Source: a virus. Taken from it: DNA of 22,574 nt. Both the position numbers and the translations under genes were made by a program. Positions 1 to 19,359 of the stretch are shown here, piece by piece. Positions within the stretch are counted from its first letter, which is position 1. Each line of letters begins with the position of its first letter. Location: IMG/VR virus record IMGVR_UViG_3300048130_000131, positions 1 to 22,574 of that record. One strand, 5' to 3'. Under the pieces are notes generated by a model that was not told where the DNA came from, did no database searches, and saw only the letters and a list, made by a program, of their open reading frames with translations.

Positions 1-270
1 TCTGATTGGATACTCCGAGTCAATAGCATCGAAATAATTTTGGTTACCCCATATACCTTTTGCAGAGTTTGCCTTCGGGTTAAATAATTCATACCCTTCA
101 CGGCGAAGCTCTCCATCCGTCTCCCTACGAAAGTTTATCTTGGTGGTGTAATTTGCTGAGGATGAAAGGAAGTTGGACTCCTGCGTAATGGGTACATCAT
201 CAGATGCAGAACCAATCAAAGCACCGCCCTGTGCGGGGTGGATGGTTATGTTTCTATATCTTTTAGCCAT
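1..270 (-). CDS. Virion or tail protein, N-terminal part only
   Basis: The reading frame is open from the ATG at 270 to the window edge, giving 90 codons of a longer protein. It begins MAKRYRNITIHPAQGGALIG and contains the polar stretch RRETDGELRREGYELF. The start overlaps the stop of the upstream fibre gene by eight bases (ATGGCTAA). No Shine-Dalgarno sequence is visible, so translation is probably coupled. It is the last link of a chain of overlapping virion genes, so a structural role such as a tail tube/nozzle or stabilisation protein is likely. I recognise no family with certainty. The rest of the gene lies outside the window. Confidence 0.75.
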   Translation of the reverse strand, partial: MAKRYRNITIHPAQGGALIGSASDDVPITQESNFLSSSANYTTKINFRRETDGELRREGYELFNPKANSAKGIWGNQNYFDAIDSEYPIR

Positions 271-3200
271 GTGAGTACAACTCGTTCTTTAGTTGAGCGA
301 TCGCATCAAGAATATCTTGCTTGGTTGCAACACTAAGGTCTTTTCCTCTTTCGTTCTCTTGTATTGCATCAATTTGTGAGGGATAACATTTTACTCTATT
401 GCCCCATAGTTGAGCTTCTCCTGTTAGGGTAAGATACAAACCGCTACCATTTGTCTGTATGCGCAAATCGCCGTACTCACCAATGCTCCTGTCATAGCAC
501 ATGATGTACCCGAAACCGGAACTAACTCCCATCTCGGTAGCGAGACCATGCATGCTTGTGTCACCCGTAAACCACCCCTGCGCTCTCACCATGTTACTCG
601 ACTCAATCACTCCTCCGACATCAAGTGCGGCTCCGGGATTGGTGTTTTTTATACCGACTTTACCCGAAGAAGTGATGCGCATTGCTTCAGGTCTAGTGGT
701 TCCATTATCAGTACAAAAAGCCAGTGCTCCTTTTCGCAATGTTGCGCTTTCAGAAACCAAGCTTATGGAAGCTATATGATTATGTGTAAGTGCCTTTAAA
801 TTGAATTGTAAAGTTGCGTGATTATTCTCTGCTTCAGTCGTAGGATTGTTCGTTACACTAATAACGGAACTCGTTAAGTTGGGTACGCTTTGGGTATAAC
901 TTGTATCAACTTCAACTACGGGTCTAAAACTACCTCCTGAAATCGAGAGATTACCTCCTAAAATCGAGAGATCACCTCCTGAAATTTGCCAGCCCGCAGT
1001 AGTCCACAAAATAGACTTATCAGTTGTACCTTTGACCACAAGACCACCGCCATCTGCTGTTGCATCAGTTGGTGAATCGGTGGAAGCAAGCTCTATAATT
1101 TTATCGTCTACTTGTAATGTTGTTGAATTGATTGTGTTGGTTGCACCATAAACATTAAGGTTACCACGCACCGTTACATCGCTACCAACATCCAGTGTAG
1201 TTGATACCTTTACATCACCATTAACATCCAACTTGGCTGCAGGTTCATCGATACCGATCCCTACATTTAATGCCTCATCAATACGCATTGCCTCGACCTC
1301 TCCGACATTGAAAGAGACCACATTGCTACGCACAGTCTCCTCTACAGTTTCGGTAAGAGTGGTAATTGTTTCACCTACGGAAGTGGCTAAGCCATTATCT
1401 ACATCCTCCTGTGTGGCGGTTTGCTCAACTGCAACAGGCCCTGTCGTTTCCACAGCAGTTGCGGCTCTTTTTTCCTCCTCCTGAATAACAACAATGGTTT
1501 CACCTACGCTAGTGGCAAGACCTGCATCCACATCATCTTGAGTCGCTGTAGACTCCTGGGCAACATTACCCGCCTTCTCGACTTCGGTTGCTACTCTCTC
1601 TTGATTCTCCTTAGTGGTTACTATGGCTTCACCTACGCTTGTAGCTAATCCACTATCTACATCTTCCTGAGTCGCTAATGACTCTTCAGCTATAAGTACA
1701 TTTGATACCTCTCCTGATGTCGCAAGTCTTTCGGTAGGCTCGTCTACTTTGACAATAACCTCTCCAACTTGAGTAGCTAATCCGCTATCAACATCATCTT
1801 GGGTGGCGGTAGATTCTTGAGCAACTGGTTTATTTGTTGTCTCTTGAGTAGTCGCTATTCTCTCAACAGGCTCTTCGATTTTAACAATCGTTTCACCTAC
1901 ACTTACTGCAAGACCCGCATCTACATCATCCTGTGTAGCTACAACTTCTTCTGCTATAGTACCTGCTTGCTCTTGGGATGTTGCGAGTCTCTCGACTCCG
2001 CCCACTTCCTTAACAATAACTATCGTCTCCCCGACTGTTGTCGCTAATCCTAAATCTACATCTTCCTGAGTGGCAGTTTCTTGGATAGGAATGACATTAT
2101 CAATAAGCTCTTGCTCGGTCTTGGAGTCAGCTACTATCTCAGTAACGGTGACAATAGTTTCGCCCACGCTAGTGGCTAATCCTAAATCTACATCTTCCTG
2201 AGTCGCGGTCTGCTGGACAGGTATCGCCTCCTCAATAATCTCCTGATCGGTCTTAGAGTTAGTTTCGATCTCCGTGATGGTGATGATTTCTTCTCCCACA
2301 GAAGTGGCTAATCCTAAATCTACATCCTCTTGGGTTGCGGTCTGTTTAACAGGAACTGCATTGTCTATAATGTCCTGATTGCTAACTGAATTTTCGATAA
2401 CCTCTGTAACAGTTACGATTGTCTCACCAACGGAGGTGGCAAACCCATTGTCTACATCTTCCTGCGTGGCAACCTGCTCAACAGGCACTGCACTTTCTGC
2501 AAGCTCCTGCTCTGTTTTGGTGTTCGTAACTACTTCAGTTACAGTAGTGATTGTTTCGCCTACAGAAGTAGCAAGTCCCGCATCCACATCTTCCTGAGTG
2601 GCTGGTTTTTGAACCGGAGTCGAGTTTTGTAAAATCTCCTCAGGGGTAAGACTGCTTGTCTGCTCCACTTCAACCACTTCCTCAGAGAAAACGGGACCCA
2701 AGGGGATCTTCGTCCAATCCGTAGAGGATATTTTAAAGTAAAGGTTTTCGGAGTCGTATGCAAAATCTCCCTGATGACCAGTTGCGTCGGTATTGCCTGC
2801 GGGTGTGAAATTGTACCGAAGTGCGTTTATATAATCCTGTATCTTCTGATCCGCCTCCGAAGTGGTGTAAATATCGAAAGAACTAAGAGTAATATTGTGT
2901 GGATTTGATTCAGCTATGTGCTGATTAAATAGCTCGAGGACATTAACATTGGGAACGAGATCAAGTCCTACATCCGTCTTGCTTACACTGTGTGGATTGC
3001 TCGTGGATGCAATATGCTCATTGATTCCACTAGGTAAACCACCACCTGCGGCTACCATCTCTGAGGGAGTTAGATTCTCAACTTTATCCAAACCAACTTG
3101 CGATTTGGTTACATCGTGAGGGTTATCCTTTAATGCTGTATGATCCTGTACAAGTAAGTTTGTTTTACTCTGTATTTCCCCACCTAGTCCGTCGATCTCT

Positions 3201-3940
3201 GTATGATCGTGATTGTGTGGAGCATAGGAGATAGTCTCCAGCATACTGTTTACTTCAGTCTTCGTGAAGTAGTCATTCAGGAAGTTTAAATCAATTATGT
3301 CATCAAGAACATGGTCGTGGTCGGGGCCAACAAGGGATGCTAATTCGTTTTTTGTCGCTAAGCCTTGAAGTGCGATATTGATGTCATCAATGGCAGACTG
3401 AAGTGCGGCAACCTCTTCTGTTTCGTCTGAAAGCTCTATGTTAGTGATACTATCCATGAGCGAGTCACGGATACTATTAAGTTCTGTAATTGAAGCCCGC
3501 AGATCCAAGTCAGCCTGTAGTCCTGTTATATCTGCTATGGTATGATTATGTACTAAACCCGCCCGATCTCCCACTTGTGCAGTTAGGCTTGTTATATCTG
3601 CCTCTAAATTATTTATCTGCCCGGCAAAGGGTAGTCCATTGATGGTTGTATCTACAGCTACAAGTAAATTGTCTACCTCTGCTTTATCATAGTAACCCTG
3701 AGCAAAAGATGCTTCCCCTCCCTCCAAGGTTGTAACACGACCCATTAAATCGGAAATCTTTGTGTTAAGCTCAGACCCTGCGGAAGCTGAAAGAGGTTTT
3801 ACCGTAGAGGATGATGTTAATCCTGTTACTAAATCCTCAACAATAAGGGATGAATCAATAAGGTCTGCAAAGTCCGACTCATCAAGAGTCGCACCCATCA
3901 TAAAATAAGACTTAAGGGTCGTTCTGTTTTGTACGCTCAT
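263..3940 (-). CDS. Large repeat-containing tail fibre
   Basis: 1225-aa fibrous protein. Residues 1-30 (MSVQNRTTLKSYFMMG, then FADLIDS) resemble attachment segments of phage fibres. Residues 60-240 are heptad-like and probably coiled coil. HxH-type motifs follow at about 131 (HNHTIADITGL), 208 (DHDH) and 242 (HNHDH); such motifs bind metal in some trimeric fibres. NPH-x-V-x-K-x-x-VGL motifs occur near 273 and 316, with a looser NPHNITL at 347; these are common fibre modules. Residues 447-887 hold ten 44-aa repeats. The C-terminal third has fibre signatures such as VGIGIDEPAAKLDVNGDV and KVGIKNTNPGAALDVGG. The start overlaps the previous stop (ATGA). It is likely the host-binding fibre; no enzyme domain is visible. 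Family is strong, receptor unknown. Confidence 0.88.
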   Translation of the reverse strand: MSVQNRTTLKSYFMMGATLDESDFADLIDSSLIVEDLVTGLTSSSTVKPLSASAGSELNTKISDLMGRVTTLEGGEASFAQGYYDKAEVDNLLVAVDTTINGLPFAGQINNLEADITSLTAQVGDRAGLVHNHTIADITGLQADLDLRASITELNSIRDSLMDSITNIELSDETEEVAALQSAIDDINIALQGLATKNELASLVGPDHDHVLDDIIDLNFLNDYFTKTEVNSMLETISYAPHNHDHTEIDGLGGEIQSKTNLLVQDHTALKDNPHDVTKSQVGLDKVENLTPSEMVAAGGGLPSGINEHIASTSNPHSVSKTDVGLDLVPNVNVLELFNQHIAESNPHNITLSSFDIYTTSEADQKIQDYINALRYNFTPAGNTDATGHQGDFAYDSENLYFKISSTDWTKIPLGPVFSEEVVEVEQTSSLTPEEILQNSTPVQKPATQEDVDAGLATSVGETITTVTEVVTNTKTEQELAESAVPVEQVATQEDVDNGFATSVGETIVTVTEVIENSVSNQDIIDNAVPVKQTATQEDVDLGLATSVGEEIITITEIETNSKTDQEIIEEAIPVQQTATQEDVDLGLATSVGETIVTVTEIVADSKTEQELIDNVIPIQETATQEDVDLGLATTVGETIVIVKEVGGVERLATSQEQAGTIAEEVVATQDDVDAGLAVSVGETIVKIEEPVERIATTQETTNKPVAQESTATQDDVDSGLATQVGEVIVKVDEPTERLATSGEVSNVLIAEESLATQEDVDSGLATSVGEAIVTTKENQERVATEVEKAGNVAQESTATQDDVDAGLATSVGETIVVIQEEEKRAATAVETTGPVAVEQTATQEDVDNGLATSVGETITTLTETVEETVRSNVVSFNVGEVEAMRIDEALNVGIGIDEPAAKLDVNGDVKVSTTLDVGSDVTVRGNLNVYGATNTINSTTLQVDDKIIELASTDSPTDATADGGGLVVKGTTDKSILWTTAGWQISGGDLSILGGNLSISGGSFRPVVEVDTSYTQSVPNLTSSVISVTNNPTTEAENNHATLQFNLKALTHNHIASISLVSESATLRKGALAFCTDNGTTRPEAMRITSSGKVGIKNTNPGAALDVGGVIESSNMVRAQGWFTGDTSMHGLATEMGVSSGFGYIMCYDRSIGEYGDLRIQTNGSGLYLTLTGEAQLWGNRVKCYPSQIDAIQENERGKDLSVATKQDILDAIAQLKNELYSHG
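1280..2602 (-). repeat. Ten 44-aa (132-bp) repeats in the tail fibre
   Basis: Ten copies of a unit built on ATQEDVDxGLATSVGETIV recur at an exact 44-residue period, at about residues 447-887 of the fibre. Copies 1-4 share a linker with a (K/N)xEQELxExAxPV-like segment. Copies 5-9 carry a different linker (ER-(I/L)-AT followed by VAQES). There are therefore two repeat subfamilies. The core resembles the ATQ-x-E-V-D-A-G motif frequent in tail-fibre proteins. Boundaries are approximate. Confidence 0.85.
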
Positions 3941-6602: not shown

Positions 6603-7465
6603 AGTGCGAAGAATCCGCTAATGTGGACTGGGTTGGTGTTGTCAGCATAGTTTCCGGCATCGCTTCCCAAGTTTATAGCTTCATACTCCGCAGTATTGTG
6701 CATACAAGGATAAACGAAATTTCCGCCATGACCGATATGCTCTATGGATTGTGCTGACTTTTCCTGCAGGACAATTGGATCTACGATCATAGAATCACCT
6801 TCTGTGTCAATATGCAGAATTGAACCGATCATATTATTCGTACCAAAAACACCAGGCTGATCTGTCAGTAGAGTATCTCTTGTGCCTAACTCCATGTTTT
6901 CAAGAAACGCACTATATGTACCAGCATCAGGGTTAAGTCTGATTGTAACCTTTGATTTCGTGTTACTTTGTGAGTTTGAGGGTGTAAGTGTTACAGCACC
7001 TGCTCCATCCATACCAATACGAGTCACATCATCAAAGATTGAGAAGGTAATAGAGTAGTCCGTACTTGGTAACTCAACCGTGAAGTCAACTTCTGTCCCA
7101 TCTAACATGGCATTATTACCGAGAGGTCGATGGCATGCACCAACTACCTTAGCTCCAACCATACCGTCATCTAGTCGCCTGCCGGATTCAATTGTTCCTA
7201 TCCATTCGGGAAAAGCATTATCCTCAAAGTCATCCACCATTTTAGGAACAAAGCGAGGTCTCATGCCTATGACCTTGCCCGAAAGGTTGGATACCCTAAA
7301 GCTACTTGCTCGATGCCAGGGTAAAGGGGTGTACTTATCTGTAACTGTGCAACCAAAAGTGCCAAACTGTCTGACCTTAGTTGTTACAACGAGCCGATTG
7401 TCGTCTACCCCAACATAGGTTGGATCAGTTATTGCCCCACGATTGTTATAGTTTACTACATTCAC
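6599..7465 (-). CDS. Uncharacterised virion protein
   Basis: 288 aa with a GTG start at 7465. That start is chosen because GGGGA lies about ten bases upstream and because GTG overlaps the stop of the holin-like gene (GTGA). No ATG earlier in the frame fits. The sequence is beta-rich and Gly/Asp/Asn-rich (for example PEWIGTIESGRRLDDGMVG) with few long helices. The end reads TNPVHISGFFAL, a compact hydrophobic terminus like those of beta-structured virion proteins. Its place between capsid and fibre genes suggests a tail, fibre-base or head-decoration role. I recognise no family. Confidence 0.65.
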   Translation of the reverse strand: MNVVNYNNRGAITDPTYVGVDDNRLVVTTKVRQFGTFGCTVTDKYTPLPWHRASSFRVSNLSGKVIGMRPRFVPKMVDDFEDNAFPEWIGTIESGRRLDDGMVGAKVVGACHRPLGNNAMLDGTEVDFTVELPSTDYSITFSIFDDVTRIGMDGAGAVTLTPSNSQSNTKSKVTIRLNPDAGTYSAFLENMELGTRDTLLTDQPGVFGTNNMIGSILHIDTEGDSMIVDPIVLQEKSAQSIEHIGHGGNFVYPCMHNTAEYEAINLGSDAGNYADNTNPVHISGFFAL

Positions 7466-7617
7466 TTTTTATCTTTCCCCTTTAGCTTCATGTAAATGCT
7501 AACACTCACATGAACAGCCGTCAACAATGCGCAGGCAGTCGCCGCGTATAAATGGATTGTTTCCAGGGTGTAGCTAGCGAAAGTTCCCGCCAGTCCCACC
7601 GCAGAATGCTTATCCAT
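7462..7617 (-). CDS. Small holin-like membrane protein, 51 aa
   Basis: This short gene starts at the ATG at 7617 and ends at TGA 7462-7464. A purine-rich ribosome site (AAGGGAAAGAG) precedes the ATG. Its ATG shares a base with the previous stop (TAATG), and its stop overlaps the next GTG (GTGA), so it fits the coupled operon exactly. The 51 residues start MDKHSAVGLAGTFASYTLE. One membrane helix follows at about 21-42 (IHLYAATACALLTAVHVSVS) and then a Lys-rich tail (KLKGKDKK). That layout matches small class II-type holins such as T7 gp17.5, which open the inner membrane at lysis. Function is inferred from architecture only. Confidence 0.7.
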   Translation of the reverse strand: MDKHSAVGLAGTFASYTLETIHLYAATACALLTAVHVSVSIYMKLKGKDKK

Positions 7618-7979
7618 TACTCTTTCCCTTCAAGAGGGTCTTCAACTTCAGCTTCTGCAACCTCTACTAAATCCTCTGCCTTAGACTGCTCCGATTCTTT
7701 GCTTTCGGTCTCTGCATACACTGCATTGGGATCCTTGGCTGGGTCTTGGGGTAGCGTCCTGAAAGCCCGAAAACTTGTTGGCACTATCGTCAGCTTTTTT
7801 TTTAGCTCTTCGAATTGCTCCTCGGATAGTTCTTCGACTAAGTCTCCGTGCATCTTAAGCAGGATTTTAGCATCCTTATTTTCATAAGAACCTATGCCAC
7901 GCTTTTTAACACCATTAGAGAAAGGTTGTACTTCTGCCCCGTAATCATAAGGCATCTTTTTGAAATATAAATGTTTCAT
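7617..7979 (-). CDS. Small acidic protein of unknown function
   Basis: 120 aa. The first 30 residues are mixed and basic (MKHLYFKKMPYDYGAEVQPF). The middle is helical and charged (VEELSEEQFEELKKKL), and the C-terminal 35 residues are strongly acidic (ETESKESEQSKAEDLVEVAE and onward). A helix of this kind followed by a disordered acidic tail is common in small head-completion or capsid-associated proteins, but I do not recognise this one. It lies just after the capsid gene. The ATG at 7979 sits a few bases after a strong GC hairpin and its T-run, with no good ribosome site unless the GGGG of the hairpin serves. An internal ATG at 7955 is an alternative start. Confidence 0.6.
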   Translation of the reverse strand: MKHLYFKKMPYDYGAEVQPFSNGVKKRGIGSYENKDAKILLKMHGDLVEELSEEQFEELKKKLTIVPTSFRAFRTLPQDPAKDPNAVYAETESKESEQSKAEDLVEVAEAEVEDPLEGKE

Positions 7980-7983
7980 ATAT

Positions 7984-8032
7984 AAAAAAACCCCACCCCC
8001 CTCCTCCGCATGGATTCAGGGGGTAAGGGTTG
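7984..8032 (-). terminator. GC-rich hairpin with T-run after the capsid gene
   Basis: Read on the minus strand, AACCCTTACCCCC can pair with GGGGGGTGGGGTT across a 17-base loop, with one or two bulges. Seven Ts follow. It begins about 14 bases after the capsid stop codon. This fits an intrinsic terminator or a partial one that sets a high ratio of capsid to downstream tail transcripts. The same G-run could also mask the ribosome site of the next gene. Confidence 0.65.
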
Positions 8033-8045
8033 TTAAAGGTTGTGA

Positions 8046-9890
8046 TTAAGTGATGTAGTTCGACCAGTCGGAGACTGAAGCGTTAGCGTCGAAGTTTTCA
8101 ATAATCAAGTGACGAGCAGGGACATCCATCATCGTAGTCCACTTGGTGGAACGGAGTGAGTACTCAGTTTCCTTGTGGGCCATACGACATTTGTACAAGC
8201 GATCCGTTTCAGGATGTGGTGTCTTGCGAGTGATGGAGTTAGTACCAGCGATACCAATTTTAACATCGGACCAATCAACGAACCACATGGCTCTCATGAC
8301 CTTTGCGTAAGTAGCGGCACCAACAACTGCTTGTGAAGAGCGATTGCCGTCCTCGTCGATTACCTTGTCACCGTCAGGTTGTACGGAAGAACCGAACAAT
8401 GCAGACTGATGATTGATAAGATCGTCGAAGTAAGGATCGTGGAACACAGCCAACTGACATCCAACCTCAGGAAGGTCGTACATGGAGTAGTTGAACAACA
8501 AGATACCATTATGGGTGATCTGTTGGTTGATCTGTGCATTGCGATCAATTCCCCATCCGTAACGAGCTGTGTAGTATTTATTGAATACTTCGAACAACTT
8601 ATTGTAGGTGAAGCGATCGGTCATGCAGTCGATAACACTGATGTTTGATCCGTCTTGCTCACGGTTGCGTTTCAAGTAGTAGATGTCAGCCATCAACGAC
8701 TCGAGGTTAAGAGCGGCTCCGGCACCATCTTTAACACGATTAGCTTCAGCCAAAAGTGCTTTGATTCCCAATGCGTTGGATTTGTACTCCAATGTGCAGG
8801 AGTTATCCTCAGGGTCAGTAACCGCTGGAAGTTGCATGTAGGTCTCAGGGGTTTGAGCGTCATTGATTGGTTGGTTGAACCAAGTAGAGCGTAACCACTG
8901 ATCTTGAGATGCTTGAGAAGCAATCTTGTTTTGCTCAGCAAGCGGAGTGTAAACCATGGACTTAAGGAAGCTATTAACTTCTCCGTTCATGATTTTCTGA
9001 AGAGTTTCACGGTAGGACTGATCTACGGTGCGAGATTCACGAGTGGTTTGTAACCAGTTGACGATAAGCTTTACGCTGAGATCGGTTGGTTGGTTACGGC
9101 ACCATTCTTCGAAATCGTTAACATTGTTAGCGATCGTTTGAACAACACCTTTATCAGGGCCGTACTGAGCCTTGAAGTCATCACTAAGTGCATTCCACTC
9201 AACATCAGTGTATCCACTAGCTTTGATTTGCTTACCAGTTGGGCGAAGAGTTACTTTAGCCTTGGAGATTCCACCTGCACTTGCATTAGCGGCTCCAATG
9301 ATTTTGAACTGAACTTCGACAGGCTCATTAAGTGAGTCCCAATGATTTGCGATCAAGTATCCACCGGTAAGGAAGTAACGCTCGATATGGTCGATTGGGG
9401 ATGCCCAGTCGGATGCACCAAGGTTTACAGTTACTTCGTAGTCACCACCAGCGCGTGTATAAGCGCCATCGATTGGTGAAGATCCGTCAGCAAGCTTTCC
9501 TGCTTCAACTGCGAAGTATCCGCTATTGATTAAGGAACGCTGTCTGCGTTGGATGTAAGGAAGGATTATTGATTGCTCAGAAATGTTTACCTTGTTGATC
9601 AATGGCTTGATGTTTGTGATCGAGCTGTTGAGTAAGGAAACGAGACCTCTTTCCTGAACGCCTAGCATTCTTGCTTCTGCGGAGCCTGCGATTACGCGAG
9701 CTAAGTCAATTTCCTTATTGGAAAGAGCTTCAAATTCCGCAGGGGTCAAACCCTTGATGGAGGCGTTAGTAAGAGTACAGCCCGTTGAGTCATCACATTT
9801 GATGATACGAGCAACACCAGGATCTTTAACAAGCGTGCTGTTAGAGAGCGCCTGTGGATCCGATAGATGAGATGAGTTAGTTGCTGCCAT
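8046..9890 (-). CDS. Major capsid protein (putative)
   Basis: 614 aa. It lies directly after portal and scaffold genes, has its own leader, and is followed by a terminator-like hairpin, as expected for the most abundant virion protein. The sequence is soluble, without signal or membrane segments. Its N-terminal 50 residues are rich in Ser, Thr and Asn; a central part has mixed helix and strand (LPYIQRRQRSLINSGYFAVE). The C-terminal half is aromatic-rich (AMWFVDWSDVKIGIAGTNSI). It is longer than most capsid proteins of this type. I do not see a clear HK97-fold signature by eye, so the call rests on gene order and size. The ATG at 9890 has no Shine-Dalgarno. Confidence 0.7.
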   Translation of the reverse strand: MAATNSSHLSDPQALSNSTLVKDPGVARIIKCDDSTGCTLTNASIKGLTPAEFEALSNKEIDLARVIAGSAEARMLGVQERGLVSLLNSSITNIKPLINKVNISEQSIILPYIQRRQRSLINSGYFAVEAGKLADGSSPIDGAYTRAGGDYEVTVNLGASDWASPIDHIERYFLTGGYLIANHWDSLNEPVEVQFKIIGAANASAGGISKAKVTLRPTGKQIKASGYTDVEWNALSDDFKAQYGPDKGVVQTIANNVNDFEEWCRNQPTDLSVKLIVNWLQTTRESRTVDQSYRETLQKIMNGEVNSFLKSMVYTPLAEQNKIASQASQDQWLRSTWFNQPINDAQTPETYMQLPAVTDPEDNSCTLEYKSNALGIKALLAEANRVKDGAGAALNLESLMADIYYLKRNREQDGSNISVIDCMTDRFTYNKLFEVFNKYYTARYGWGIDRNAQINQQITHNGILLFNYSMYDLPEVGCQLAVFHDPYFDDLINHQSALFGSSVQPDGDKVIDEDGNRSSQAVVGAATYAKVMRAMWFVDWSDVKIGIAGTNSITRKTPHPETDRLYKCRMAHKETEYSLRSTKWTTMMDVPARHLIIENFDANASVSDWSNYIT

Positions 9891-9900
9891 TGTAATATAT

Positions 9901-9937
9901 GTTAGTTGTTATACGATAATTCGTGTTACAAACTAAC
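9901..9937 (-). promoter_or_regulatory. Long dyad in the capsid gene leader
   Basis: GTTAGTT (9901-9907) and AACTAAC (9931-9937) are perfect inverted copies. They enclose a second dyad, ATACGATAATTCGTGT (9911-9926), giving a near-continuous stem of about 16 pairs with a four-base centre. It lies 11 bases before the capsid ATG. The inner part matches a dyad before the terminase operon (17051-17066). It could be an operator, a phage-specific promoter element or an mRNA leader hairpin. The whole gap 9891-10049 holds no gene, and the rest is AT-rich without a clear terminator. Confidence 0.55.
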
Positions 9938-10049
9938 AATAGCGGGACTAAATCAAGAAATCAGCAAATCGAATGAATTTTGGTGTTTTTTTAGAAAAAC
10001 GATAGTTAAGCTAAAACTTTAGTGGTAACCTAAAACTATGTTTTTGGAT

Positions 10050-11432
10050 CTACAAACCTAACGCACCAAGGAGTGCATTATTGGTGGACTTGGGTTGAGG
10101 TTTTGGATCAACCGTAGTTCCCTGTCTTGGTGTAGTAGCTACAGAAGGTGGCTTAGGTGCAGGTTCTTTAGTCTGCACAGGTGCTTGTTGCTGAACAGGT
10201 TGTGCGTCCGATTTAGTGTAACCGGCTTTTTCCAACTGTGTCCTCTGATGAGTCAAAGCGTTATTAACCAAGTCCTGGTATCTGATTGCTAAAATCTTAA
10301 GTAGATCGTTGTCACTCCATGTGTAATACTGAGAGCGTTTATCTTCAGGCATTTGGTAATATCGCTCGCGACGCATAAACATTTTGCCTTCCTGCTCTGT
10401 TTGACCCGACTGAATAAATGATTCCTGCTCTTTTTGGAGCCAGTTATTTAAATCCTTATGAATTTGATTGTTTTCCAAATCAAGCCTTGTGGTTGGATCA
10501 AGGAAGATGTCAGTAAGTGCGTCACTATATGTAAGCAACTGTTGTGTGAAGTTCTCAAGGATTTGATACTCAAATGGATTCTCCTTTGCAAACTGCTGTA
10601 TTGCCTCATCACCTCCGGAAAGTGTTTTGCGGAACTCTTCAGGTATTACGGTTTCTTGTGCTACCCTTCTGAAATTAGCTTTTGCCTGATTAACTCTTGG
10701 TTGCACTTCTTGCCGTTGCAGTTTGGCCTCAAGCTCTTCAACCCTTTCATTCGTACGCTTTACCGTACGCTTGTCTGCTTCTTCAAGAATCATTTCACGA
10801 TAAACCTTATCCTCGTCAGCCCGTGAGAACTCAGGTCTATTCTTCTGTAAAAACTCTTTATACTGATCGTCTGTGGAGGGATCGTAGAAGTCATCCTCTG
10901 CCATTTTCTTATCAAGGTAGTCCTTACTCTTCTTTAAGAATGCTTTGAACTTCTTGGATTTCCCTTTGTGTTCTCCTCCCAATTTCTTGTCGGCATAGAG
11001 AATTTTCTCATACACAACCTTCTCTTCGGGTATAAGTGTATCAATAAACTCCTGCTCTTCAGTGTCGATTAAAGGCTCCTCCGTATCCACTTGTTGCCTA
11101 AATGCAGGCTGTTTCGCAACATCTTCGGGTATATCAGGATCAACAACCTTACGAAGTTTCTTTTTCTTGGGTTCAGCTTTTTCCGGCTCTTCCTCTTTAG
11201 CTTCCTCCTTTGGCTCCTCTTCCTTCTGCTCTTCTTCCTGTGGCTCAGATAGGTCTAGGCTATTTACCGCCTCATTGAGGTTAATAACCTCTCCCTGCCT
11301 TTCTTCCTCTTGCTCAACCTCTTCAGTAGCTTCCTCCGCTACATCAAATAAAGTCTTATATAATGGATTCTCCTTTGGAGTCTCCTCTTGTGGTTTCTCT
11401 TCTACTACCTCTTCAGTTTTTTCTTCGCTCAT
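10050..11432 (-). CDS. Scaffold-like acidic coiled-coil protein
   Basis: 460 aa. Residues 1-95 are extremely rich in Glu and Lys with little hydrophobic content (for example EEVVEEKPQEETPKENPLYK). The middle is helical and charged (ERVEELEAKLQRQEVQPRVN), consistent with coiled coil. The end is a Pro/Gln/Thr-rich linker (KEPAPKPPSVATTP) followed by a small conserved-looking tail, NNALLGALGL. Such a charged helical protein with a short C-terminal capsid-binding tail, between portal and capsid genes, is typical of phage scaffolding proteins. They guide capsid assembly and leave or are cut afterwards. The start overlaps the portal stop (ATGA). No protease domain is seen. Confidence 0.75.
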   Translation of the reverse strand: MSEEKTEEVVEEKPQEETPKENPLYKTLFDVAEEATEEVEQEEERQGEVINLNEAVNSLDLSEPQEEEQKEEEPKEEAKEEEPEKAEPKKKKLRKVVDPDIPEDVAKQPAFRQQVDTEEPLIDTEEQEFIDTLIPEEKVVYEKILYADKKLGGEHKGKSKKFKAFLKKSKDYLDKKMAEDDFYDPSTDDQYKEFLQKNRPEFSRADEDKVYREMILEEADKRTVKRTNERVEELEAKLQRQEVQPRVNQAKANFRRVAQETVIPEEFRKTLSGGDEAIQQFAKENPFEYQILENFTQQLLTYSDALTDIFLDPTTRLDLENNQIHKDLNNWLQKEQESFIQSGQTEQEGKMFMRRERYYQMPEDKRSQYYTWSDNDLLKILAIRYQDLVNNALTHQRTQLEKAGYTKSDAQPVQQQAPVQTKEPAPKPPSVATTPRQGTTVDPKPQPKSTNNALLGALGL

Positions 11433-13690
11433 AACTGGACTTGTTGTTCAGGTGATGTCATTGGTTGTTGCTCGCCCTCCATAGGTGGTGCGCCCGGTGG
11501 TGCTTGCGGTGGTTGTTCTGATTGTTGCATCTTCTGCATTATCATTTGAAGTGCCTCAGTAACCTGCGGCCATTGTTCCTTCAATTGTGTGATAAATTGC
11601 TCGTTTCCAATATTGGACATTTCCTGTTGTTCGTCTGCCTCATCAACCTCAAGCTTGAGGTCATGCGCACCAGACATACGGAATATCTCGTTGAACATAT
11701 TAAAGATTCTCTCCTTGCCCAAGGATTGTGCCATGTCGGGTACTCCCATAAGTTGCATTACCAACTGACCAAGAACCTGTGCTGACTGAGTGTCCCTTGC
11801 TCTTTCAGCTCCGTCCCTTGAACTAAATAAATATTCGAAGATTAGACTATCGGGTGTGCCAATAACATTTCTTTTTATTGCATTTGGGTCCCCTGATGTT
11901 TCCACATCAAATCCTGCTTCACGGATAATATTCTCTGAGTACCTGCCTCGGATCGGAACTACATACTTATCTGAAGAGCAGGACACTAAATGTTCGTATA
12001 TTACTTTCTTCATTGCCGAACGCATGTCATCCACTCCTTCTGATATAAAAGAATAAATAGCGTTGGTAGTGTTACTAATCTCTGCGACCTCCGTTGCACT
12101 AATCTCCCGTGGAGCGGGCTGTCCCAACTCTTGTGGAGATAGGATCAGCAATCGCTCTACGAGATTTAATAGTTGGAGAATAGCCTGGATCGACTGGTTG
12201 ATCCCTGCGGAAAGTTCTCTTTGGACATCTACTACCTGTATGAAGTTATTACTGTTGATACCTAAGTCTGCCGCCTTTTGTCCCGAGTAGAATAGTGCCT
12301 TGGGTTTAGCATAGAAACTATCTTCACTGATTGCGGTCTTTATGTATTCTTTAACATCATCATCTAGTGCGTCTTGGTCTATAGTAAATATCTTAAACAT
12401 ACTCATCTTCATCTGCTCGAGCATAGAGGTAAGTATATTTGTTAATTGGTCTTGGTAAGGCATGATTTCGTGAGCGACAGATATATTCGCCATGCGATCA
12501 TCATTCTCATTTATCCCACCATAAACTGCTGGCATCGAGGGGAGATACTCTGCATAAAGTACGGTTTCGTCACTCGCTACAGTTAGCTTGAGCCAAACAT
12601 CATGTGGGTACTCACCTAGTCCATCACGCTTTGGATTAACACGCATGTACATCTGAGTAACGAACATCCCCTTGTCCTCGTCTTCGGCGGCATAAAGTCC
12701 GACCTGAGCGACACGATCATTATTCATTGAAAAGGTGTCACCAACTTTAGGGAAGACCATGTCATCCTTGAAGTAATATCCAAAGAAGTCTGCGTATGTA
12801 TTATATATAGAAGACAGGCTGTTGGTGAAACTGATTTGGTCGGAGTTCCATGTTGCGGCATTACCGTGTATATCTCCGTAGCGTACAATATCCCAATACC
12901 CTATCCACTCGGGTCCTTGGTTATTATTTACATCGTGTAATGGTCTTGAGATGTCCCTAATTACGCGAGTTGGGTGAGGAGTAGCAAACTTTACACCTGC
13001 ACGCTCTGCATAAGACTCTTTTGACTTCTCCCCAGTAAGATCATCTGTGGTGTACCTCCACTGTATATCCTCAGTCCATGAGGTTTCAGGGAATGAAACG
13101 CAATGACCGTACATAAACATGTGGCGGATAGTTTGCTCGAACTGATGGCGGTAGCCGAATTGCTCTGCCATGATCTCCACTCTTTGACTTAATACATCAG
13201 CTCGTAATTTGTCTACCAGCTCAGTGCTTCTTGGCTCATATTTAAAATACGGGAATAGATTACAGAATCTACTAGACTGAGCCGCCACACGACGGGTTAC
13301 ATAGGATCGGATAATATTAACAGAAACCTCATAAAGCCTTAGAGCGTTAATTGATTTTAATTCATTCTGATCATCGTACTCACAGAACCGATCCGCCACC
13401 CCTAGATCGCCAAGCTTATTTGCACATTGATCTATATCAATCTTACCTTGTGCATACTGTAGTAAAGGGATTGTAGACTTATTGATCGGCAATGAATCCC
13501 ATGCCATGTCCACACTCATATACAACTTTGCATCCTTAGCGCACCGACGAATACCCTCAAGTATCCTTGATTGTATTATGTCTTGGAATCGCTCGCGTGT
13601 CTCGAAATCCTTGCCTTCTGTTGCTGTGAAAATCTCTCTTAGGCGTGCTTGTGTACACCCGTACTCTCTAAGTATGTCCTTATTAACCAT
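11429..13690 (-). CDS. Portal protein
   Basis: 753 aa, between a small gene and the scaffold gene, overlapping both starts and stops. It has the mixed helix-strand pattern of podovirus-type portals: a basic helical N-terminus (residues 30-60), a long region containing an HPTRV-x-R-D-I turn, a helical middle (DQLTNILTSMLEQMKMSMFK) matching the stem and wing helices, and a later stretch (QPAPREISATEVAEISNTTN) typical of portals, where A-x-E-x adjoins a long helix. The last 80 residues are Gln/Pro-rich and disordered (QAPPGAPPMEGEQQPM). Twelve copies would form the DNA entry ring where terminase docks. The start at 13690 overlaps the upstream stop by eight bases (ATGGTTAA). Confidence 0.85.
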   Translation of the reverse strand: MVNKDILREYGCTQARLREIFTATEGKDFETRERFQDIIQSRILEGIRRCAKDAKLYMSVDMAWDSLPINKSTIPLLQYAQGKIDIDQCANKLGDLGVADRFCEYDDQNELKSINALRLYEVSVNIIRSYVTRRVAAQSSRFCNLFPYFKYEPRSTELVDKLRADVLSQRVEIMAEQFGYRHQFEQTIRHMFMYGHCVSFPETSWTEDIQWRYTTDDLTGEKSKESYAERAGVKFATPHPTRVIRDISRPLHDVNNNQGPEWIGYWDIVRYGDIHGNAATWNSDQISFTNSLSSIYNTYADFFGYYFKDDMVFPKVGDTFSMNNDRVAQVGLYAAEDEDKGMFVTQMYMRVNPKRDGLGEYPHDVWLKLTVASDETVLYAEYLPSMPAVYGGINENDDRMANISVAHEIMPYQDQLTNILTSMLEQMKMSMFKIFTIDQDALDDDVKEYIKTAISEDSFYAKPKALFYSGQKAADLGINSNNFIQVVDVQRELSAGINQSIQAILQLLNLVERLLILSPQELGQPAPREISATEVAEISNTTNAIYSFISEGVDDMRSAMKKVIYEHLVSCSSDKYVVPIRGRYSENIIREAGFDVETSGDPNAIKRNVIGTPDSLIFEYLFSSRDGAERARDTQSAQVLGQLVMQLMGVPDMAQSLGKERIFNMFNEIFRMSGAHDLKLEVDEADEQQEMSNIGNEQFITQLKEQWPQVTEALQMIMQKMQQSEQPPQAPPGAPPMEGEQQPMTSPEQQVQL

Positions 13691-17050: not shown

Positions 17051-17099
17051 ACACGAAAATTCGTGTAACTCTTAAAGTATGTGCAAAATAATATTTTGC
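17051..17099 (-). promoter_or_regulatory. Two dyads in leader of packaging operon
   Basis: ACACGAA-AA-TTCGTGT (17051-17066) and GCAAAAT-AAT-ATTTTGC (17083-17099) are perfect inverted repeats in an AT-rich stretch before the first packaging gene. The first matches the capsid-leader dyad in 14 of 16 bases. They probably bind a regulator of late transcription; the operon promoter should lie here, though no classical -35/-10 pair is convincing on the minus strand. Confidence 0.55.
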
Positions 17100-17111
17100 T
17101 CGTCCCTTTGT

Positions 17112-17173
17112 GGAGCAATGTGGAGCAATCCGTGGAGCGATTGGGAGCGATCTTAGGAGCGATTGGGAGCGAT
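17112..17173. repeat. Six phased GGAGCRAT octamers
   Basis: On the plus strand GGAGC(A/G)AT starts at 17112, 17122, 17134, 17144, 17156 and 17166. Steps alternate 10, 12, 10, 12, 10 bases, so three 22-bp units of paired sites, all on one face of the helix. The first two have A at the variable position, the last four G. The last two lie inside the end of the integrase gene. This looks like an iteron or operator array for a DNA-binding protein. Confidence 0.85.
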
Positions 17174-18220
17174 CGAGAAATATGCTTTTGCTATCTTCTT
17201 ATCCACCCTGTTGTTCTTGTAGTTTTTAAGGAATGTCTCGGATGACATGTGTCCCATGATGTCCAGGGATGTCTCAAAACCTAAGTGCCAATACGCATAA
17301 CTAGCGAAGGAATGCCTTGCTCCGTTTGCGGGATAGTCAAATCCTTCAACTCCTCCGCCTCCCCTTCTACCATTATTCTTCCAGCCGTATGCCCTTCTTG
17401 AAGCCCGTCTTCTCGCTTGGTTAAAACCTGAGTATGATGGCATAACTAATCCAGTAGTTCTTTTGGGTAACCACTTCCATAAATTTGGAGGAGGTACGAT
17501 CCATCGCTCATATCCTGTTTTAGTGATTTCTGCTTTTAGTCCGATTCTTTCCCCGTACTGAATATCTGAATACTGTAGTAGGCTTAACTCGCCTTCCGGT
17601 CGGATCCCCGTGAATAAAGCAATTGCCATGGCAGGCTTATACTTATCGGGCATTGCCTCCAATAGAGATCTTGCTTCTTCCACTTGTAAAATACCGGGTA
17701 ATTTAAAGAAGACCTTTTTTTGGACCAATTTTAGGCTCTCATTGTCCTTGATGTACCAATCTTTCTCATTTGCACCATATCCTTTTTTCCCACACCATGC
17801 CATGAATGTGCGGACGGATGCCGAGTAACCCTGCTTGGTTTTAAACGACCAATTAGAAGAGTTCACATATTCGTGGTAATCCTTTTCTTTTACTTCACTT
17901 ACGAACCTGCCTTCACCGAACCATTTTAAGAACTTATTAACTCTTTCCTCTGTAGTTAGGTAACCCTTCTGCTTCTTCTTGAATTTATTATAGTTTTCCT
18001 CGTCGTAGGCTTTTAAGTATTCATCCCGTGCTATTCGCAATATGGTCTTATCTCCCGTTGGTTCCTTTTCGGATAATTCACCCAACCAATCGACCACATC
18101 AAAAGAGTTAGCTTCTTTCCATGAATCGAAAAATTTTCTTCTTCTTTTACCTTGGTGTAGAATATTTACTACCCATTTTATCTTTCCTCGAACTTCGTGC
18201 TGTTTGATACTTACCTTCAT
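17153..18220 (-). CDS. int: Tyrosine recombinase integrase
   Basis: 355 aa, normal length. An N-terminal strand-rich arm-binding domain (residues 1-35, HQGKRRRKFF) and a SAM-like core-binding domain (85-145) precede the catalytic domain. Catalytic residues: Arg207 in FTGIRPEGEL, Lys234 in ITKTGYERW, Arg302 in NGARHSFASY, His324 in IMGHMS, and nucleophile Tyr334 in FLKNY. The usual first His of the H-x-x-R box is Asn299, a known variant. The enzyme joins attP to a tRNA-Arg gene. The ATG at 18220 lies two bases from paired TGTTGACAAA sites, so Int may control its own gene. Its last codons (APNRS) are also part of the phased octamer array. Confidence 0.95.
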   Translation of the reverse strand: MKVSIKQHEVRGKIKWVVNILHQGKRRRKFFDSWKEANSFDVVDWLGELSEKEPTGDKTILRIARDEYLKAYDEENYNKFKKKQKGYLTTEERVNKFLKWFGEGRFVSEVKEKDYHEYVNSSNWSFKTKQGYSASVRTFMAWCGKKGYGANEKDWYIKDNESLKLVQKKVFFKLPGILQVEEARSLLEAMPDKYKPAMAIALFTGIRPEGELSLLQYSDIQYGERIGLKAEITKTGYERWIVPPPNLWKWLPKRTTGLVMPSYSGFNQARRRASRRAYGWKNNGRRGGGGVEGFDYPANGARHSFASYAYWHLGFETSLDIMGHMSSETFLKNYKNNRVDKKIAKAYFSIAPNRS

Positions 18221-18221
18221 G

Positions 18222-18265
18222 TGTTGACAAATCTGTTGACAAAAAAACTGCTATTTAGTGTCAAC
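18222..18265. repeat. Putative Int arm-binding sites, int side
   Basis: TGTTGACAAA occurs at 18222-18231 and 18234-18243 (12-bp step). An inverted partial copy, TGTCAAC, is at 18259-18265. The family resemblance to TTGTTGCCAAA on the other side of the tRNA fragment suggests arm-type integrase sites. They lie over the int start region. Confidence 0.65.
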
Positions 18266-18298
18266 GATTGGTAAATAATGAATAATTTTATGTCTACC

Positions 18299-18326
18299 AA
18301 AAAAAAGAGCCTCACTGCTGAGACCC
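18299..18326 (-). terminator. Intrinsic terminator between att core and int
   Basis: On the minus strand GGGTCTCA pairs with TGAGGCTC around a GCAG loop (18326-18307, eight pairs with two G-T) and is followed by eight Ts (18306-18299). Flanking AAA/TTT pairs could lengthen the stem. It lies 33 bases after the tRNA fragment. It would end transcripts from the regulator operon and, after integration, those of the rebuilt tRNA gene. Confidence 0.85.
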
Positions 18327-18358
18327 TTTGTTTAAGCGAGATTGACGCTTTAAATGAA

Positions 18359-18408
18359 TGGCACACCCGGAGGGAGTCGAACCCCCAACCTCCTGGTCCG
18401 TAGCCAAG
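18359..18408 (-). other. attP core: 3' part of a tRNA-Arg(ACG) gene
   Basis: Read on the minus strand: an anticodon stem CTTGG/CCAGG with loop CTACGGA (anticodon ACG), variable AGGTT, T-arm GGGGG-TTCGACT-CCCTC, acceptor half CGGGTGT, discriminator G and encoded CCA. No D-arm or 5' acceptor half is present upstream, so it is not a whole gene. A tRNA 3' end beside an integrase is the classic form of a tRNA-targeting attachment site. After integration it would restore the host tRNA. The exact core boundary is unknown; homology may begin in the anticodon loop. Confidence 0.88.
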
Positions 18409-18438
18409 CTTTAATCGGCTATTTTACAAGGACTCAGG

Positions 18439-18684
18439 CTATTGTTGCCAAATTGTTGCCAAAACACAGGTGCAAACTATTAAAGTACAAACCACAACTG
18501 CGGTGCAGGCTATTGCAACTATCATTTGCTCCTTCCTTTGGGTATCTAGCTTAATGGCAACATCATGAATGTCATTTAATCGGTGTCCATCAATTCGCAC
18601 TTCGCCAATCTCGCCATCCAAATCAGTAGACCATTCTTGGGTGTCATGAAGTATTCTTATATTTTGGGTGGCGGGGTTGCTCAT
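18439..18684 (-). CDS. Small single-pass membrane protein
   Basis: 81 aa. A soluble region (EVRIDGHRLNDIHDVAIKLD) is followed by one membrane helix at about 54-77 (MIVAIACTAVVVCTLIVCTC) and a short end, IWQQ. The purine run AAAGGAAA lies about a dozen bases before the ATG. It follows the ribbon-helix-helix gene by 28 bases, probably in one transcript. The final codons overlap the TTGTTGCCAAA repeats. It might be a lysogenic-conversion or superinfection-type protein; no family is recognised. Confidence 0.55.
   Translation of the reverse strand: MSNPATQNIRILHDTQEWSTDLDGEIGEVRIDGHRLNDIHDVAIKLDTQRKEQMIVAIACTAVVVCTLIVCTCVLATIWQQ
18442..18463. repeat. Putative Int arm-binding sites, distal side
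   Basis: TTGTTGCCAAA is repeated exactly in tandem at 18442-18452 and 18453-18463. It differs from the int-side TGTTGACAAA by one base in the shared ten. Two on each side of the tRNA fragment is the expected layout for arm sites of an integrase. Confidence 0.65.
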
Positions 18685-18712: not shown

Positions 18713-18934
18713 TTATTTGTTTTTTTCGCTCCCAAGACCAAATGCGAATTTGTCTATCTTTAAAGGTTTAAAGTCTTTCACGCCTTCACCTTTAACAGAT
18801 AAAATATAGAACTCTATTGCGTCCTTAACGAATGCTGCTGTTGATTTTTGGGTGTAACTTAGTAATCCCTGCATGTCATTATAAACATCTTTAGGGATTC
18901 TGCAGTTAATGGCTTGTAGGGTCTCAGTAGTCAT
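18713..18934 (-). CDS. Ribbon-helix-helix regulator (putative)
   Basis: 73 aa from the ATG at 18934, chosen because AAGGA sits seven bases upstream; a longer frame to 19012 would run through the promoter. The core QAINCRIPKDVYNDMQGLLS followed by TAAFVKDAIEFYIL has the strand-helix-helix pattern of Arc/CopG-type repressors, which bind DNA as dimers. The remainder is basic and polar. It faces the rightward early genes across a region with direct repeats, so it is the best candidate in the window for a lysogeny or early-gene repressor. The fold is inferred from pattern only. Confidence 0.68.
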   Translation of the reverse strand: MTTETLQAINCRIPKDVYNDMQGLLSYTQKSTAAFVKDAIEFYILSVKGEGVKDFKPLKIDKFAFGLGSEKNK

Positions 18935-18980
18935 ATAGTTCCTTTCTTGGGAGATTTTTGGGCAATTTAAAGAATCTGCA

Positions 18981-19125: not shown

Positions 19126-19359
19126 ATGGATGAGAAAAACAAAGAATCATACTTAATGAAAGGGTCTGAAGTTATCACTTTTCTAGGCTTAAAAGCCACG
19201 GCGGGGTACAGATACCTTCAACATCTTGAGAAGCATCAGATCATTCGACCAATCAAACTTCCCGGTCTTAAAACACCAAGGTGGAAGAAAGAGGAAATCG
19301 TGGAACTAGCGAACACTCGCGACTCGGTCGAATGCCCTGAATTTGTAGTAAATCAATAA
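19126..19359 (+). CDS. Excisionase-like winged-helix protein
   Basis: 77 aa. The sequence KGSEVITFLGLKATAGYRYL, then HQIIRPIKLPGLKTPRWKKE has the MerR/excisionase winged-helix order: a recognition helix, a turn, then the Trp-Lys-Lys wing, ending EEIVELAN. It is small like phage Xis or AlpA proteins and is the first gene of the rightward arm, near the attachment site. It may help Int cut out the prophage or control early genes. No good ribosome site precedes the ATG, so a leaderless or weakly initiated message is possible. Either role is inferred. Confidence 0.65.
   Translation: MDEKNKESYLMKGSEVITFLGLKATAGYRYLQHLEKHQIIRPIKLPGLKTPRWKKEEIVELANTRDSVECPEFVVNQ

Follow-up and report, generated by a model that had tools for sequence, protein, structure and literature searches.

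Sequence comparison of a putative tRNA-Arg attP and its relatives points to arm sites that follow the integrase N-terminal domain and tRNA choice that follows the catalytic domain

The window analyzed here is the entire linear IMG/VR virus record IMGVR_UViG_3300048130_000131 (22,574 bases). Upstream of its integrase gene (int) lies a 48-nt core flanked by two direct-repeat pairs, and a matching host tRNA, the junctions left by relatives, conserved arm steps and fixed loop distances indicate that this element is an attP, of a type familiar from lambda and L5 (Table 1). Among its relatives, int-side arm sequence appears to track the N-terminal domain of the integrase (Int) and tRNA choice its catalytic domain, and comparison of closely related elements suggests that the DNA-reading end of the enzyme and its arm words travel together as a swappable cassette. 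The attP is ordinary in kind; the new part is the comparative series of relatives.

Table 1. Features of the putative attP and its surroundings (window coordinates)
Feature	Position	Strand	Remarks
Exchanged block, core to just beyond int	17106..18403	-	96% identity with L003, flanks ~70%
int	17153..18220	-	tyrosine-recombinase integrase, 355 aa; phrog_1 integrase, E=3.5e-20
Candidate int-side arm site TGTCAACA	18222..18229	-	one base from int ATG
Candidate int-side arm site TGTCAACA, second copy	18234..18241	-	12-bp step
Terminator-like hairpin and T run, 3' of tRNA 3' end	18304..18329	-	other hairpins here in relatives
attP core	18359..18406	-	48 nt identical to host tRNA-Arg(ACG), anticodon stem through CCA
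Anticodon loop CTACGGA	18397..18403	-	probable 7-bp crossover (overlap) region
81-aa ORF	18439..18684	-	ends LATIWQQ; far-side pair within final codons
Candidate far-side inner arm site TGGCAACA	18443..18450	-	39 bp from anticodon loop
Candidate far-side outer arm site TGGCAACA	18454..18461	-	11-bp step

Profile searches place int, terminase and portal genes to the left of the attP, and a PD-(D/E)XK exonuclease together with a weak Sak-like match to its right. At the position of the window hairpin, relatives carry different hairpins. The int stop codon lies within an array of three 22-nt units (17109-17174), each made up of two GGAGCRAT-like words, and several relatives have quite different short repeats at this position; such repeats could be relics of other arm arrays. 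Between int and the neighbouring gene, a palindrome that is kept in many relatives, ACACGAAAATTCGTGT (17051-17066), looks like an operator. Elsewhere, a 1225-aa ORF (263-3940) with repeated ATQEDVDxGLATSVGETI units is tail-fibre-like, by look only, and a plus-strand ORF starting with MNGTPGGSRTPNLL (18354-18554) runs antisense to the tRNA fragment. ORFs antisense to tRNA genes are a familiar origin of false genes.

Hosts were reached through integrase relatives in cellular contigs, which led to an Opitutales MAG (L063) and from there to 42 genomes of its family. The 45-nt segment from anticodon loop to CCA occurs with at most 3 mismatches in 31 of the 42 genomes and exactly in 12, and in those 12 the identity with the window runs 3 nt further (48 nt, 18359-18406) and then ends. 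A sequence-only reading of the window had proposed the 3' end of a tRNA-Arg(ACG) as core; the 12 genomes, which hold a tRNA-Arg(ACG) identical over 48 nt and matching through CCA, bear this out, with the correction that the 50 nt originally proposed were two bases too many (18407 differs from the matching hosts). There are two host tRNA-Arg alleles, and each phage carries one or the other. Segments of tRNA-Pro of the type used by some of the phages are found in 37 of the 42 genomes, with at most 3 mismatches. The host of the virus appears to be an Opitutales-type member of the Verrucomicrobiota. ARAGORN detected no complete tRNA in the window, as expected, since the tRNA part is a fragment. 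In L007 and L023 (4797-4872) the program calls a full tRNA-Arg across the far arm region, a call that is probably spurious, the 5' half being phage DNA.

A few genomes also preserve what integration has left behind. In L063, a complete tRNA-Arg(ACG) (7444-7520) is followed by a hairpin, a TGCCAACA pair and a decayed int, and within 5 kb another int copy, truncated, and a third core accompanied by a far-side pair of its own come after these; two or three prophage remnants are stacked here at a single tRNA-Arg gene (7444-12140). L129 shows the same order of complete tRNA-Arg, terminator, arm pair and decayed int. Among 30 tRNA loci examined, an intact 12-bp pair lies 155 or 156 bp from the loop in two (L109, L129) and a single arm copy is present in three (L104, L117, L120); the remaining loci have no arm pair, and several end at contig ends. 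Thus, the search for prophage junctions that the sequence-only reading had proposed yielded, in a few genomes, decayed attL-type junctions of relatives with the same arm pair. The L063/L129 and L109 junctions, with the tRNA restored and int downstream, indicate that relatives integrate at tRNA-Arg in this arrangement; they belong to decayed relatives, not to the phage of the window, of which no intact prophage was found in the 42-genome family or at the 30 tRNA loci. More distant integrase relatives in cellular genomes lie beside tRNA-Phe (L064, L075) or beside tRNA-Thr-like sequence (L068, L073); their arm words differ (TGTCACCC, TGTCAGCA, TGCCACCA, TGTCAAAA), with steps of 11 and 12 bp kept in L068 and of 10 in L075. 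A phage contig with a related integrase (L062, CALIKS010000046.1) is binned in a MAG labelled as an archaeon, a label that is likely a binning error.

The two repeat pairs with 12-bp and 11-bp steps described in the sequence-only reading are indeed present where it placed them. A comparable 9-mer repeat in the 45 nt upstream of int was obtained in 0 of 300 dinucleotide shuffles, and likewise no shuffle (0/300) was as good as the far pair of the window. Taken singly, the far pairs of some relatives are weak against shuffles (L002, 72/300; L009, 170/300; L011, 45/300; L014, 70/300; L021, 62/300; L038, 27/300). Family anatomy was compared in the window and 20 relatives with the int start present. 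In 21/21 elements the two copies of the best int-side repeat are 12 bp apart, and in 17 of the 18 with enough upstream DNA those of the best far-side repeat are 11 bp apart; in the exception, L014, the homologous pair also stands at an 11-bp step. The inner far site is 39 bp from the anticodon loop across elements (40 in L017), and the distance from the loop to the first int-side site is exclusively 145 or 155 bp, one helical turn apart. Four elements use tRNA-Pro(TGG) instead of tRNA-Arg, and here too the distances are 39 and 145 bp when measured from the true anticodon loop. Since the loop-to-arm distances are equal for the tRNA-Arg and tRNA-Pro elements, we place the crossover at this loop, and strand exchange probably takes place within its 7 bp; at many tRNA genes tyrosine integrases act at the anticodon loop, as stated in PMC8371274.

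In most elements the int-side pair ends 0-2 nt from the int start codon or overlaps it, leaving no space for a Shine-Dalgarno sequence. In the window the far pair differs from the int-side pair at position 3, so that equal binding of both by Int is not assured. The four repeats are candidate arm sites, which Int would bind. The attP had also been called complete; the paired arms stand, and completeness would further require sites for host bending proteins and for the excision factor.

Int was assigned by its predicted fold as well as by the phrog_1 profile (Table 1). A fold comparison was needed because Pfam scans returned no catalytic-domain model, only weak SAM-like matches, and phmmer found no solved relative by sequence; a full-length hhalign comparison of the Int family with lambda Int likewise gave no significant result. 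The AlphaFold2 model of Int (pLDDT 84) gave Foldseek probabilities of 1.00 to lambda Int and Xer chains, and the best fold matches were lambda Int, Xer and Tn1549 integrases (structural alignment to 1z19_B: Z 14.4, rmsd 4.0, 252 aligned). Its N-terminus is modelled as strands 2-10, 13-22 and 25-31 followed by a helix, 34-38 (pLDDT ~84-92), and is thus predicted to form the three-stranded, one-helix domain that PMC8138268 describes for arm binding. Residues R207, K234, H324 and Y334 align with R212, K235, H333 and Y342 of lambda Int in 21/21 rows. Box II reads N299-G-A-R302 and was put one column off relative to lambda by MAFFT; R302 is likely kept, and the first catalytic His of this box appears to be replaced by Asn299, which is invariant in 21/21 rows. 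In a search of a phage collection, the sole match to Int was Akkermansia phage Chantilly (24.7%). An earlier description of the enzyme as a new integrase thus holds for the branch, while the family itself is known. We infer that Int is active in cleavage and integration.

Covariation of arms, Int domains and target was analyzed in 20 elements with Ints at most 95% identical, tRNA choice being scored in 18. L002 was left out (its Int is >95% identical to that of the window), near-copies were represented by one row each (L003-L005, L014/L018, L015/L016, L047/L052/L053, L048-L051), and integrases cut by contig ends were excluded (L019, L020, L022, L024). By Mantel permutation, whose p values ignore shared ancestry, int-side arm distance correlates with distance over the N-domain (Int residues 1-52) at r=0.664 (p=0.0001); for the core-binding part the correlation is weak (0.21, p=0.02), and for the catalytic part there is none (0.054, p=0.27). 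With the catalytic part controlled for, arm and N-domain correlate at 0.697. In this test, tRNA choice is correlated with the catalytic part (0.379, p=0.0002) but shows no correlation with the N-domain (-0.017). When changes are counted on trees, the arm motif requires 8 on that of the N-domain and 12 on that of the core-binding plus catalytic parts, and the tRNA 2 and 1, respectively, counts that agree in direction only, the N-domain tree being poorly resolved (2/17 inner branches starred). Single residues follow single arm bases: His8 occurs with T at arm position 3 in 6/6 elements and is missing from the remaining 14; position 7 is T wherever Int has Asn11 (3/3) and C wherever it has Arg11 (17/17), and Tyr30 is paired with G at position 5 (3/3). 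Positions 8, 11 and 30 fall on the three strands of the modelled N-terminal sheet.

Exchange is seen most directly between L046 and L047, whose catalytic parts are 97% identical and whose N-domains are 45% identical, with arms TGCCAACA and GGGCAACA, respectively. Their DNA is ~90-97% identical on either side of a dip to ~55% over the arm pair and approximately the first 45 codons. At sites where L046 and L048 differ, L047 equals L048 at 91/99 inside this block and L046 at 123/157 outside it, a pattern reached by 0 of 300 shuffles; the first breakpoint (-226) is loose, informative sites being sparse there. A larger block unites the window with L003, and its boundary falls at 18403, the first base of CTACGGA, that is, exactly at the predicted crossover. 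In several other pairs the near flank is 0.93-0.97 identical and the far flank 0.54-0.69 (shuffled baseline 0.51). From the L003 boundary and this contrast between flanks, the tRNA core emerges as a recurrent joint between blocks, be it through Int or through general recombination.

The far-side pair is less uniform in its relation to Int, and here the alternatives have to be weighed. Its outer site is TGGCAACA in 14/17 elements whatever the type of Int, and at position 3 it agrees with the int-side site of the same element in 9/17 (p=0.24); as neither far site of the window equals the int-side site, the pair could be bound by an excision factor (Xis/RDF) instead of Int, or serve both. The inner site, however, agrees at position 3 with the int-side motif of its own phage in 13/17 (p=0.0004), and the far pair shares motif and orientation with the int-side pair, so that we consider the excision-factor explanation unlikely, if worth keeping in mind. 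The window is an exception to the inner-site match, which fits a recently acquired block from core to int. Three small proteins examined as candidate excision factors, of 77 aa (19126-19359), 76 aa (18713-18943) and 81 aa (Table 1), had no informative family match, and for this reason no excision factor is named.

Concerning the int-side pair, its location immediately before the int start codon and the similarity of TTGACA to a -35 box would also suit an operator for some other regulator, or parts of a promoter. Nevertheless, its sequence tracks the Int N-domain (r=0.66, partial 0.70) and is swapped along with it, the same motif recurs on the other side of the core, and a scan for sigma-70 promoters at int showed no excess (7 found versus 5.6 expected); we thus hold an operator or promoter role in place of an arm site to be improbable. 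We give still less credit to the idea that the far pair is just repeated coding sequence closing the 81-aa ORF. In most elements the far motif does lie in the last codons of small ORFs, but in two reading frames (W-Q-Q in L007, L010, L023 and others; L-A-T or R-A-T in the window, L012, L014, L021 and L002), indicating that DNA rather than protein is conserved; furthermore, L015 and L017 keep the motif without a long ORF, and the distance to the loop is constant at 39 bp. Finally, tRNA fragments generally mark prophage ends, but an integrated prophage end or a captured tRNA fragment is almost certainly the wrong description of this segment, which, as the sequence-only reading had argued, has phage genes on both sides, and which stands in the same order within larger virus contigs of relatives, the complete tRNA and junction occurring only in cellular genomes.

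We are therefore left with strong confidence in the reading of the element as the attP of a temperate tailed phage of an Opitutales-type host, in which Int would act on tRNA-Arg(ACG) while its N-domain holds the four arms, arm and N-domain forming a cassette. The catalytic and core-binding domains would act on the 3' segment of tRNA-Arg(ACG), with strands exchanged probably at the 7-bp anticodon loop. Upon integration the 5' half of the host tRNA gene would be joined to a 3' half supplied by the phage, which would restore the tRNA, and the phage-borne terminator-like hairpin would follow. The three-stranded N-terminal domain would assemble the intasome by binding the four arm sites, the far ones 11 bp and the int-side ones 12 bp apart. 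As the int-side pair directly adjoins the start codon of int, we propose that Int, when bound to this pair, probably acts as a repressor of int as well. Arm pair and N-domain code are contiguous DNA, and would be inherited, and sometimes exchanged, together and independently of the catalytic part, on which the choice of tRNA depends. The wider proposal strikes us as reasonably likely, short of firm: a ~200-bp cassette (int-side pair plus ~50 codons) would be exchanged independently of the catalytic part, the inner far site adapting and the outer remaining fixed; the eight arm types would represent a recognition code (His8/T3, Asn11/T7, Tyr30/G5), and the tRNA core would be a recurrent joint for blocks of int plus half an attP.

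The arrangement is reminiscent of mycobacteriophages of Cluster K, L5 and Giles, with paired arms, a tRNA or tmRNA core and a terminator before the int-side arms. According to PMC3203893, the Cluster K attP has two pairs of ~11-bp putative arm sites flanking a tRNA/tmRNA core 5' of int, a putative terminator separates the core from the int-side arms, and differences in arm consensus were proposed to match N-terminal residues at positions 17 and 19. One of the two Cluster K1 pairs, that on the int side, has the inverse orientation of the other, whereas all four sites of the window are direct, as PMC3203893 states for L5 and Giles. The Cluster K case is built on a one-position difference among near-identical integrases; the window family comprises eight arm types and a cassette swap. 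Phage lambda (NC_001416; 1z1b, 1z1g) similarly combines arm-binding, core-binding and catalytic domains with arms on both sides over a few hundred bp; sequence similarity between the two Ints is negligible, lambda int ends at attP whereas that of the window starts there, and the lambda annotation places a group of three sites past the core in one direction (27814-27854) and two sites, apart from each other, in the opposite one. In KplE1, the attL arm sites of IntS overlap the int promoter region beside tRNA-Arg (argW), and autorepression was measured, as reported in PMC2951348; arm sites at the int promoter or start are common to both systems, with the pair of the window abutting the start codon and its autorepression proposed by us. 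As in the marine Verrucomicrobia phage group G11, whose host was predicted by an integrase/att match, an environmental phage is here assigned by att match to a Verrucomicrobia tRNA; the account of G11 in the excerpt of PMC3861242 is without arm sites, unlike that of the window. Our search of the open-licence literature returned no paper on the phage group of the window or on swaps of an arm-plus-N-domain cassette.

The family provides a natural series of approximately twenty integrases whose arm recognition varies separately from their choice of target. With short synthetic DNA and small proteins, this series makes directly testable how the arm domain reads DNA, and whether arm specificity can be moved with target specificity untouched. 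In addition, a metagenomic phage is linked to hosts among the Opitutales, and one tRNA-Arg gene is seen to have received several phages successively.
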